Assembly: GCF_021390675.1 (NCBI RefSeq)
Contig: NZ_JAJEJV010000004.1
Span: 3,782,001 to 3,846,000 of the forward strand
Source of the DNA: Dyella sp. 2HG41-7
GTDB lineage: Bacteria; Pseudomonadota; Gammaproteobacteria; Xanthomonadales; Rhodanobacteraceae
Direction of reading: 5' to 3'
DNA: 64,000 nucleotides
Both the position numbers and the translations under genes were made by a program. Of the stretch, positions 19,623-23,788 are shown piece after piece; the first letter of the stretch is position 1; the number at the start of each line of letters is the position of its first letter. A model generated the notes under the pieces. The model was not told the DNA's origin, made no database searches, and saw nothing but the letters and a program-made list of their open reading frames with translations.

Positions 19623-20672
19623 TTACTGCGAACTGCTCAGCTTGAACTCGATACGCTTCTGCTGCTGCGCGGCGATCGCGGCGCCGTCGCGCATCGCGGG
19701 CGAGAACTTCGCGCGGCGGATCGCATCGATGGCGGCGCTGTCGAACACGTGCCGCGGTTCGGCGCTGACCACCGTGATGTTGGACACGCTGCCGTCCGAA
19801 TTCACCATGTACTGCACATCCACCCAACCTTCCTGGTTGTTGCGAAGCGCGGCGGTCGGATAGCGCGGACGAATGGTGGAGATCGGTATTGCATCGCGCG
19901 TTTCACCACCGCCGCCGCCAGCAGCGGGGGTCGTGGCGGCCACATCGGAGGTTGCGGCAGCTTTTCTGGCTTCGTCTTGCTTGATCTTCTCCTGCTGCGC
20001 AACCTGAGCGGCTTGCTGCTGCGCCGCCTTGTCGGACGCCGCCTTGTCGGCGAGCGCCTTGTCAGACGCAGCCTTATCGGCCGCCGCCTTCTGCGCCGCA
20101 AGTTCCGCCTGATGCTGTTGGTCGAGCTGCTTCTGCTGCTGCTCGTCGAGCGTCTTGCGCTGCGCGTCGAGCTTGGAGCGCAAGATCGTCAACGTGTAGT
20201 TGGTGGGATCGACCTTCGACAGCAAGTCGATCTCGCGATCGGCTTCGCTGAATTGGCGCTGGTTGATCGCCTGCTCCACGTTGCTCGCCGCAAACGGGAA
20301 CGTTTCGCGCAGCGCGTCCGCCGCGACCTGATTGCCTGGTTGCTTCTGCAACACCTTGAGATAGAACTCGAAGGCGTTGTTGCCGGCCGGCGCAATCACG
20401 CGCTGCTGGTTCATCGCGCTGCGGGCTTCGGTCAGAAGATCGTTAAGGCTCATCGCCTCCACATTGACCGGCGCCGCCTGTTGGCTAACGGCGACGGGCG
20501 TGGACGGATGTCCGCCCTGATCGACGCTCACCATGTCCTCATGCGGCTTGATGATGAGGAACCATGACAGAACGGCCAAGATTCCAACGACGACAAGAAT
20601 CGCGATGGTGACGGGCTTAATCGCCCCGCGCGCACGCGAGCGCGCATAACGCATGTTATTTCGGGTATCCAT
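19623..20672 (-). CDS. TonB C-terminal domain protein with TolA-like stalk
   Basis: 349 residues. One transmembrane helix (about 20-41, IAILVVVGILAVLSWFLII) is followed by a helical periplasmic region and a Lys/Ala/Gln-rich coiled coil (about 160-235, with units such as AADKAASDKALADKAASD). A C-terminal TonB domain follows (about 265-345: RPRYPTAALRNNQEGWVDVQY, then FDSAAIDAIRRAKFSPA). TonB proteins couple inner-membrane proton-motive force to outer-membrane transport; the stalk resembles TolA. No exbB/exbD or receptor gene adjoins, so the partner complex is unknown. The stalk is helical instead of Pro-rich, unlike classic TonB. The ATG at 20672 gives a short cytoplasmic tail. Confidence 0.85.
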   Translation of the reverse strand: MDTRNNMRYARSRARGAIKPVTIAILVVVGILAVLSWFLIIKPHEDMVSVDQGGHPSTPVAVSQQAAPVNVEAMSLNDLLTEARSAMNQQRVIAPAGNNAFEFYLKVLQKQPGNQVAADALRETFPFAASNVEQAINQRQFSEADREIDLLSKVDPTNYTLTILRSKLDAQRKTLDEQQQKQLDQQHQAELAAQKAAADKAASDKALADKAASDKAAQQQAAQVAQQEKIKQDEARKAAATSDVAATTPAAGGGGGETRDAIPISTIRPRYPTAALRNNQEGWVDVQYMVNSDGSVSNITVVSAEPRHVFDSAAIDAIRRAKFSPAMRDGAAIAAQQQKRIEFKLSSSQ

Positions 20673-21067: not shown

Positions 21068-21589
21068 TTACTTCTTGGCCTTGGAGGTCTTGGTAGCCTT
21101 CACAACCTTGGCAGCAGCAGCCTTCTTGGCAGTGCGCTTACGCGTTGCCTTCTTGGCGGTTTTCTTTGCACCAACGCGCTTGGCGCTGGCCTTCTTCGCG
21201 CCTACGCGCTTTGCTGCCTTCTTGGCAGTCTTGCGCACGGTGCGCTTCTTAGCGGTGGCCTTCTTGGCGACCGGCCGCTTAGCGGCGGCTTTACGGGTGG
21301 ATTTCTTGGCAGCTTTCTTAGCCGATTTCCTAGCAGTTTTCTTGGCAGTGGCCATAGTTCGTCTTAGCTCCTCATCAGTTGGCAGTGGTTGCCCAGTAAA
21401 AGCGTGGAGGAACGCCTCAACCAGCAAATCGCTGTTCGTGGCGTGCCTCAAATTGTTGACCTGTCGGTAAGTGCGGAGGTCCGACAAGAGTCGCAATACG
21501 TGCATTGGGATCGATACAGTGATCTTTCTCACCGCGCCGGATTTTTCGCCGTGCTCTATGTATGGCTTGATGAATTTCGATGCCACCAT
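21068..21589 (-). CDS. MetJ-like repressor domain fused to a histone H1-like Lys/Ala tail
   Basis: 173 residues in one uninterrupted frame. Residues 1-78 match the methionine repressor Met[15 protein letters not shown] (DNA-contacting beta strand of the ribbon-helix-helix), then [19 protein letters not shown] and [17 protein letters not shown]. From Met79 the native MetJ C-terminus is replaced by 95 residues of AKKA/RKTA-type sequence, about one third Lys, with no Asp or Glu and a duplicated RVGAKK unit, like bacterial H1-like proteins (AlgP, Hc1/HctB type). Met79 (codon at 21355-21353) could also be an internal start for a free H1-like protein; GAGGAG lies about 12 nt before it, slightly far. 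The full-length ATG at 21589 has GGGGAA upstream and a good promoter. It probably binds DNA; whether it represses met genes, compacts the nucleoid, or both is unknown. Confidence 0.85.
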
Positions 21590-21617: not shown

Positions 21618-21646
21618 AAGCTATTCCTGAACATTTCAACTGTCAA
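21618..21646 (-). promoter_or_regulatory. Sigma-70 promoter of the metJ/H1-like gene
   Basis: On the minus strand, a perfect -35 TTGACA (21646-21641) is separated by exactly 17 nt from TAGCTT (21623-21618, 3 of 6 to consensus). Transcription would begin near 21611, giving a leader of about 22 nt. No tandem met box (AGACGTCT-like) is recognisable nearby. Confidence 0.55.
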
Positions 21647-22126
21647 TTGATTTTTGCCATGAAATCAATCTCTTCGACCTGAAGCCCCACCGATGACACG
21701 GGTCCGCGAGGAGATTTTTTCATTGCAAATTTCATTGCCGATACGACTAAATGCATTCAAGGAATCGGTTTCGTTGATTTTTAAAAAAGGCCAAAAACAA
21801 GCTAAAAACAGCGATTTTTCTCATTCGCCTTGATACACGCATATGCGTAATGCAATGCGCATCGCAACGCCGCGCAACCGCTCGCTCCGACCGCCTGATA
21901 GGGGTCATTCGGAGCATGAACGAATTTAGACCGGAACGTGCCGCGACGGACGCCAAAAGTCGTCCCGAACACCCCGAACACCCTCGATGCACACCTGAGC
22001 GACGCGCCGCCGACCAACTTCAACAGACGATCGATGCGCATCCGAGCGACGTCCGTCATCCATTTTTTTCTTGGTGCACGCGACGTCGATTTTTTGTTTT
22101 TCGCTCGGTGCGAGAACCGTCGATAC
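21647..22126. other. AT-richer intergenic region, no gene supported
   Basis: 480 bp between the metJ-like promoter and the gcvH terminator. Its left half is distinctly AT-richer than the neighbourhood, with A and T runs. It holds two small palindromes, ACGCATATGCGT (21837-21848) and ATGCGCAT (21855-21862). Short frames here lack ribosome binding sites and protein-like composition. Confidence 0.55.
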
Positions 22127-22174: not shown

Positions 22175-22576
22175 TCAGTGATCTTCGTTTTCGATCAGTT
22201 CGGCATAGGCATCGGCGTCGAGCAGTTCGTTCAGTTCGGCGCGATCGCTGGCCTTTACCACGAACAACCAACCGTCGCCGTAAGCGTCTTCGTTGATGGT
22301 TTCGGGCTTGTCGCTGAGGATCTCGTTGACCTCAACCACCTCGCCGGATACCGGCGAATAGATGTCGGAAGCGGCCTTGACCGATTCCACCGTCGCGGCG
22401 CTGGTGCCGGCCTGCACGCTGGCGCCGATTTCCGGCAATTCGACGTACACCAGGTCGCCGAGCTGCTCTTGCGCATGGTTGGAGATACCCACGCGAATCA
22501 ACCCATTGTCTTCGACACGGGCCCACTCGTGGGACTTGAGGAATTTCAGATCGCCGGGAATCTCGCTCGCGCTCAT
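22175..22576 (-). CDS. gcvH: Glycine cleavage system H protein
   Basis: 133 residues, normal length. GcvH carries the lipoyl arm that shuttles the aminomethyl group from glycine between the P, T and L proteins. The lipoylated Lys is Lys67 in [20 protein letters not shown] and [20 protein letters not shown] are family signatures. It lies 111 nt downstream of gcvT in the same direction, with an inverted repeat between them. gcvP is not in the window. Confidence 0.97.
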
Positions 22577-22687: not shown

Positions 22688-23788
22688 TTAGATACCTTCG
22701 CAGGCTTTGCCGTCGCGCACAAACGGAAACTTCACGATGCGCACCGGCACTTCACGTCCACGAATATCGACGCGCACATCCCCGGTCACGCCCGACGGAA
22801 TGCGCGCGAAGGCCACCGACTTATTCAGCGTCGGTGCGAAGCCGCCGGAAAGAATTTCGCCGTCGCCTTGCGGGGTCAGCACTTTCTGACCGTGACGCAG
22901 TACGCCTTTGTCATCCAGCACCAATCCGACCATCGCGTGCGGCACGCCATGCGCTTTTTGCGCTTCCAGCGCCTTGCGGCCAATGAAGTCGCGTCCTTCG
23001 TCGAGCGCGATGGTCCAGGCCAGCGCGGCCTCCCACGGCGTCACGTTTTCGTCCATGTCCTGGCCATAGAGATTCATGCCGGCTTCCAGGCGCAGCGTGT
23101 CGCGCGCACCCAATCCGCACGGCGCGACGCCGGCGGCCGACAATGCATTCCACAAGGCGACAGCCTGGTCTTCGGGCACGATGATCTCGAAACCGTCTTC
23201 GCCCGTGTAACCGGTGCGCGCCACGAACAACGGCACGCCGTGCGGACCTTGCGCGGCGGCGGCGGCAAAACGGCCGAGCTTTTCGATGCGCGCCCGATCC
23301 ACTTCGTGCAACAGCGCGATGAGCTTGGCGCGCGCGTTGGGACCTTGCACGGCGATCATGGCGAAGTCGGGACGCTCCTGCACAGCGACGTTGAACGCTT
23401 TTGCCTGCTGCTCGATCCACGCCAGATCTTTGTCGCGCGTGGCGGCGTTGACCACCAGCCGGAAAAATTCGTCACCGAGGAAATAGACGATGAGGTCGTC
23501 GATCACCCCGCCCTGCTCGTTAAGCATGCACGAATACAACGCCTTGCCCTGCACCTTGAGCTTGTCGACGCTGTTGGCCAGCAGGTGACGCAGGAAGTCG
23601 CGCGTGCGTGCGCCGTGCAGGTCGACCACCGTCATATGCGACACGTCGAACATGCCCGCATCGCGGCGCACGGCATGATGCTCTTCGATCTGCGAGCCGT
23701 AGCTGATCGGCATGTCCCAGCCACCGAAATCGACCATGCGCGCACCGAGTTCGCGATGGGTAGCGTTGAGTACGGTCTTCTGGGTCAT
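22688..23788 (-). CDS. gcvT: Glycine cleavage system aminomethyltransferase (T protein)
   Basis: 366 residues. GcvT transfers the methylene group from aminomethyl-GcvH to tetrahydrofolate and releases ammonia. Signatures: [23 protein letters not shown] near the N-terminus, [13 protein letters not shown], and [13 protein letters not shown] near residue 195. The domain order is that of the family, ending [15 protein letters not shown]. It is followed by gcvH. The 80 bp upstream are too short for, and do not resemble, a tandem glycine riboswitch. Confidence 0.97.

Follow-up and report, generated by a model that had tools for sequence, protein, structure and literature searches.

The metJ-H1 gene of Dyella sp. 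2HG41-7 is probably two genes in one: a single reading frame that would yield both a fusion of the methionine repressor MetJ to a lysine-rich, histone H1-like tail and, from an internal start codon at Met79, the H1-like protein on its own. It lies on the minus strand of the window (the whole stretch of 64,000 nucleotides analysed here) at 21068-21589, with its ATG at 21589-21587 and its stop codon at 21070-21068. An earlier note on this DNA had described one frame with a MetJ core followed by a Lys-rich tail free of acidic residues, and this is borne out by the single, uninterrupted frame of 173 codons.

The first 78 residues (21356-21589, minus strand) form the ribbon-helix-helix core, assigned by the Pfam MetJ profile PF01340, which matches residues 5-82 (E-value 5.3e-36; 122.9 bits, cut-off 25), and by alignment of residues 4-83 with the E. 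coli MetJ structure 1cma (1.4e-30); the NCBIfam MetJ profile NF003622 gives the protein 126.6 bits (cut-off 110). RKITVS of metJ-H1 aligns with KKITVS of 1cma, on the beta-strand whose Lys23 and Thr25 (E. coli numbering) we take to contact the bases, so that these residues are present here as well. Canonical MetJ is near 105 residues long and carries a C-terminal helix C. By this measure metJ-H1 is not a canonical MetJ, since the PF01340 match, which begins at profile position 5, ends at position 82 of 97 and leaves the canonical C-terminal part unmatched. The likeness to E. coli MetJ thus extends to the core, including the KITVS strand, and to tandem met boxes at a methionine gene (see below), whereas a lysine-rich tail of 95 residues takes the place of the C-terminal part and Glu39 and Arg42 are replaced in the window's genus. 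Composition shifts abruptly at Met79: the tail (residues 79-173; 21068-21355, minus strand), which coincides with the putative internal reading frame, contains 33 Lys in 95 residues (35%), 9 Arg and no Asp or Glu. Its scores against HC2 and NF038053 (12.4 bits each, with cut-offs of 40 and 80, respectively) fall below the curated cut-offs, and this likeness is driven by composition. The mean pLDDT of predicted structures (51.7, five sequences) is too low to inform on the fold. A second metJ, whose presence elsewhere in the genome the earlier note had raised, was searched for in the window's genome and none was found, metJ-H1 being the sole MetJ there.

The gene is preceded by gcvT (22688-23788) and gcvH (22175-22576), the latter serving as locus anchor across families, and followed by a gene for a TonB-family protein (19623-20672), all on the minus strand. 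The order gcvT-gcvH-metJ-H1 is shared by the window and 25 other genus representatives, and the TonB-family gene is the usual downstream neighbour (24 of 26 representatives; not detected in L085 and L087). In one short record (L055), metJ-H1 has neither gcvH nor gcvT within its 1.4 kb of upstream sequence. A sigma70-like promoter, predicted by sequence match as TTGACA-N17-TAGCTT (21618-21646, minus strand), lies upstream of metJ-H1, and TTGACA-N17-TARYTT is found at this place in all 26 representatives.

We infer that the window's family (f1) is Rhodanobacteraceae, because the MetJ-H1 sequence of Dyella choica (L047) equals that of L005 (genus g1) and Rhodanobacter and Frateuria loci were also found, and, from family size and MetJ absence only, that the MetJ-less sister family f2 is Xanthomonadaceae/Lysobacteraceae; a second MetJ-less sister family, f3, is represented by one genome (G152), and f4, f10 and f12 are other families of the order. 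MetJ was found in 16 of 16 genomes of the window's genus and in 146 of the 147 sampled f1 genomes, covering 26 of 26 genera. In the 98 distinct full-length f1 proteins, a set that excludes genes cut by contig ends, the tail is without exception in frame with the core, with lengths of 36-311 residues, 26-45% Lys and 0-2 acidic residues. Core and tail are therefore co-linear across the family, a point raised in the earlier note, and no stop codon or frameshift interrupts the junction in any of these 98 proteins. Family genomes outside this set were judged by frame length alone (at least 125 codons, save four matches cut by contig ends). A methionine stands at the junction in 97 of the 98 proteins, preceded by a residue that varies (Thr, Asp, Ile, Ala or missing). 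The sister families' separate H1-like gene could be taken as a sign that an assembly error or frameshift fused two genes in the window, but 98 distinct proteins, drawn from many assemblies, share the same frame and already refute this explanation, the probability of which is negligible.

Judging from the translated proteins, the H1-like tail on MetJ is, as far as sampled, a family-level feature. In a sample of 250 genomes of the order, 20 outside f1 encode a MetJ, and none of these 20 proteins, all of them translated, carries an H1-like tail; no match to MetJ was obtained in f2. Six of the 20, all from f12 (L107-L112), stop at about residue 80-85, where the tail would begin, which suggests that a MetJ core can function as a repressor by itself, and the remaining 14 have a short C-terminal end of mixed charge. 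A class-wide sample of 369 genomes contained five with MetJ, namely two members of f1 and three full-profile MetJs in frames of 112-118 codons.

That Met79 might start a second product was also suggested in the earlier note, and this has become the best-supported part of its reading, with frozen codons, a Shine-Dalgarno sequence and reuse of the start region in sister families all pointing the same way. A putative translation-start element, recognised by a freeze of synonymous sites, spans codons 63-79 of metJ (21353-21403, minus strand). In nearly every genus codons 63-77 read GCT TTT ACT GGG CAA CCA CTG CCA ACT GAY GAG GAG CTR AGA CGN, although third positions of gcvT and gcvH in these genomes are 87% G or C. 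The mean excess codon identity over these 15 columns is 0.269, a value reached by none of 342 control windows of 15 columns in gcvT and gcvH (maximum 0.195), while the rest of MetJ peaks at 0.06. Likewise, the commonest codon differs from the one preferred in gcvT and gcvH in 11 of the 15 columns, compared with at most 7 in any control window. The borders of the frozen stretch were set after the alignment had been seen, and codons 69-82 gave 0.227 against 0.229 for the best nine-codon gcvT window, so that selection on an internal start above that on the protein is evident with the first placement and weaker with a differently placed window.

The Shine-Dalgarno sequence proposed for Met79, GAGGAG (21368-21373, minus strand), closes a 33-nt core of the element and pairs strongly with the anti-Shine-Dalgarno sequence: the mean duplex energy is -8.2 kcal/mol for Met79 in 26 genera, whereas the value is -5.2 at the metJ start and -3.2 at 525 background ATGs, of which 3.8% are as strong as Met79. 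Of 60 distinct family junctions, 53 have 12 nt between GAGGAG and ATG and six have 9 nt (three rows that are canonical MetJs of other families having been dropped from the count), and 12 nt is longer than ideal. Met79 is very probably a genuine start codon, with one frame giving two products, because the codons upstream are frozen, the Shine-Dalgarno pairing is strong and the free H1 gene of the sister families keeps the blocks of this start region.

The freeze admits another interpretation, in which the fusion is the only product, Met79 goes unused and the stretch is kept as a small-RNA target, a DNA-binding site or a determinant of mRNA stability. We consider this quite unlikely. It does accommodate the extent of the frozen stretch (about 48 nt), which exceeds what a Shine-Dalgarno sequence needs, so that part of it may serve another purpose, as well as the prevailing 12-nt spacing and the situation in genus g7, where the element, the Shine-Dalgarno pairing (-2.2) and the junction Met are all lost and just the fusion is retained, still in frame. 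It is opposed by the near-constancy of Met79 next to a variable neighbour and by the sister families, where a free H1-like gene starts right behind the same blocks. In addition, the 33-nt core of the element (at most three mismatches) occurs once in 75 of 76 f1 genomes and in none of 223 others, and no second copy or complement within three mismatches was found in the 76 family genomes searched; a role of the core as small-RNA partner or repeated DNA site was rejected on this single-copy distribution. RNA structure as the cause of the freeze was ruled out as well, since the window's stretch folds no better than shuffled sequences (z +0.71) and no Rfam match over the gathering score was obtained for one f1 locus and 15 sister-family loci. 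Four further candidates, i.e. a sigma54 promoter, a hammerhead-like motif, a +1 frameshift site and an overlapping small ORF, were set aside by eye, as each is contradicted by variants among the family sequences, such as GAC for GAT, CTA-CCA and CTT-AGA.

Clues on the history of the internal start come from the sister families. In 20 of 20 f2 genera examined, gcvH is followed by a free lysine-rich ORF that begins MA..KK (within 1.5 kb in 17, in longer stretches in three), and none was found after gcvH in five genomes of f4, f10 and f12 examined likewise. In all 20 f2 genera this ORF is preceded by GACGAGGA[GA] and then ATGG, with a CTGGGC block within 90 nt in 18 of them; a metJ-type promoter, TTGACA-N17-TAGNTT (one mismatch allowed per hexamer), lies 297-416 nt upstream of the free H1 gene, also in 18 of 20, the distance from the -35 box to GAGGAG in f1 being 272-279 nt. 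In the order sample, ACTGAYGAGGAG-N2-14-ATGGC occurs in 68 of 76 f1 genomes, two of which have a second, apparently chance site, in 68 of 78 f2 genomes, where the matches were traced to the H1-like gene in the 20 genera examined, and in one of 145 other genomes. The f3 genome has the variant ACTAACGAGGAG and was missed by the motif expression used for f2; its site is otherwise nearest to that of f1, including CTAAGACG before the ATG, and its promoter, read by eye, lies 266 nt upstream. A profile built from the f1 region between promoter and start (E-values up to 10) matched 19 of the 20 f2 genomes at the promoter block and 16 at the start block, and the f3 genome at both. These matches have the correct strand and order and involve essentially only the two ends of the profile; shuffled sequences gave none. 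Single f2 matches are mostly weak (the best are 6e-4 in f2 and 8e-7 in f3), and it is their recurrence that constitutes the evidence.

The blocks common to f1 and to f2 and f3 most likely derive from metJ, because they correspond to MetJ codons (Thr-Gly-Gln, Thr-Asp-Glu-Glu) whose residues recur in the MetJ of other families. The simplest history would then be an ancestral promoter-metJ-H1 arrangement from which the metJ frame was lost in f2 and f3 with the promoter and the H1 start kept; on this history the internal start must already have been functional when the metJ frame disappeared. Between promoter and free H1 gene, the f2 leader (about 290-390 nt; alignment of 17 loci, L164-L168, L170-L178 and L287-L289) shows conserved blocks of its own, AGCAGACG..CTGC.GAAG.GAGTGAG, a terminator-like CC.CG/CGGG-TTT stretch and ATCCGT, and may be a regulatory leader RNA, although no Rfam family matches it above a gathering score.

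Alternatively, the two separate products could be what matters, the fusion being incidental to the loss of a stop codon and the tail being tolerated or trimmed by proteolysis. The MetJ of f12, which ends about where the tail begins so that the core may work without it, and the wide variation in tail length are compatible with such an accident. Nevertheless, under neutral drift a broken frame would be expected in at least some of the 98 proteins, all of which lack a stop or frameshift, and g7 keeps the fusion after losing the internal start; an incidental fusion is unlikely.

The earlier note had also considered that MetJ might have been domesticated away from methionine. Met boxes argue against this. 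A tandem met box was defined as AGACGTCT twice, which we take to be the met-box consensus, with at most two mismatches in the genome counts, and 64 such dyads were counted in 16 genomes of the window's genus, compared with 14 for the reversed pattern. Among 20 sites examined in five genus genomes, one is recurrent: in four of these genomes it separates metX-metB from a divergent cysK-like gene, and in L254, the fifth, only the cysK-like side is visible in the ORF list. MetX, MetB (a partial frame) and CysK were named by family search in the window's genome and by likeness elsewhere. The best dyad upstream of metX has 0-3 mismatches in 24 of 24 f1 loci scored, the window's genome included (2 of 26 f1 genomes gave no locus), and is directly followed by TTGAC in 19 of the 24. 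In f2 and f3, where 2 of 8 genomes gave no locus, the best dyad has 5-7 mismatches and none of six loci qualifies, at least 97 of 100 shuffles reaching the same score in five loci and 10 of 100 in one; these control genes share only 44-48% identity with the query, and their strict orthology is uncertain. The MetJ half is most likely a working methionine repressor, because tandem met boxes stand at metX in f1 and are absent in the MetJ-less controls. A general chromatin protein that has given up its methionine role, as the missing canonical C-terminal part and the replacement of Glu39 and Arg42 in the window's genus might suggest, is thus highly improbable in view of the met boxes at all scored metX loci and of the excess of dyads over the reversed pattern.

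The other met-box sites examined in the genus are not put forward as operators, being located within coding sequence, downstream of genes or ahead of genes whose role is unknown. One of them, near position 2000 in L237, L243, L248 and L251, recurs behind a small gene named lipoprotein-like by eye and has no obvious gene to regulate in these four genomes. A met-box-like dyad was also observed 93-114 bp upstream of the metJ -35 box, as best match, in 25 of 26 genus representatives, its score being matched by at most 5 of 100 shuffles in 21 of the 26. In the window species this dyad (21741-21756) is degenerate, with six mismatches. Autoregulation of metJ from an unusual distance is possible in most genera, and no such claim is made for the window species.

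Glu39 and Arg42 have been described as partners of S-adenosylmethionine (SAM) in E. coli MetJ, according to an excerpt of a simulation study (PMC2775130). At the corresponding positions of metJ-H1 (residues 38 and 41), the window's genus has Leu and Tyr. Among 97 proteins the pair is Glu/Arg in 71, Leu/Tyr in 16 (all from the window's genus), Leu/His in seven and another combination in three, and in some genera the two residues are replaced as a pair, Leu occurring with Tyr, His, Ser or Glu. Such replacements could change SAM sensing, and SAM control may be altered in the window's genus.

In the mechanism that we favour, translation from the first ATG would give a MetJ dimer with two flexible lysine-rich tails, its binding sites being the tandem met boxes at metX and probably others. 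Separate loading of ribosomes at Met79 would give the free histone H1-like protein (about 95 residues), which corresponds to the product of the stand-alone gene at the same locus in the sister families. We infer that the cell makes both proteins, that SAM remains the corepressor and that the tail, given its composition, binds DNA non-specifically. The tails may raise affinity, bridge DNA or compact it locally at met operators, and the free product would serve as a general H1-like protein. A more far-reaching and rather doubtful version of this two-product mechanism is that SAM-gated MetJ brings H1-like tails to met operators and nucleates compaction there, with the internal start supplying free H1 to the nucleoid.

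In-frame internal starts that give long and short products from one frame are known from infB, cheA and clpB. In contrast to these, the predicted short product of metJ-H1 belongs to a different functional class and is a separate gene in relatives. The tail resembles AlgP, the tail of PhaF, HC2 and NF038053 in being Lys/Ala-rich, repeat-like and free of acidic residues, and differs from bacterial H1-like proteins in being joined to a sequence-specific repressor. In the excerpts available of the respective papers, AlgP of Pseudomonas (PMC9239181) and HupB of mycobacteria (PMC5676037) likewise carry a lysine-rich tail behind an N-terminal part; unlike that of metJ-H1, however, the N-terminal part described there is not a metabolite-sensing, operator-specific repressor, and these excerpts describe no internal start. 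The AlgP tail, similar to that of metJ-H1, is needed for the spacing of polyphosphate granules (excerpt of PMC9239181), and by analogy an AlgP-like role is an alternative for the tail of metJ-H1. Other H1-like genes probably exist in the genus, as NF038053 matched separate frames of 202-271 codons in five genus-mates (G002, G003, G006, G008 and G013) at scores below its cut-off; in the window's genome its single match lies within a frame of 853 codons. With the tail as query, the search of that genome recovered only the tail itself, by a method insensitive enough to have also missed the own tail of the g7 genome G021.

In the excerpted text of Leyn 2014 (PMC4239095), MetJ is assigned to six gammaproteobacterial groups and SamR and MetR to Xanthomonadales, and the excerpt of a comparative MetJ study (PMC3228920) contains no mention of Xanthomonas or Xanthomonadales. 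No report of a MetJ-H1 fusion was found in the literature on MetJ with Xanthomonadales, histone H1, lysine-rich or the genus names. The parts of metJ-H1 are of known kinds; what is new, within the literature searched, is their joining, the proposed hidden start and the way in which the locus has decayed in sister families. MetJ control would now include a whole family of an order to which the excerpt of PMC4239095 assigns other methionine regulators, and nature would here provide, throughout a family, a specific repressor that is permanently linked to a protein of the nucleoid type. The locus may also represent gene loss caught in the act, sister families having dropped the repressor frame and mostly kept the promoter and the codons that had turned into a ribosome-loading site. 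If H1-like tails are indeed brought to met operators by SAM-gated MetJ, the methionine and SAM status of the cell would set both the silencing of promoters and the level of a nucleoid protein from one reading frame.
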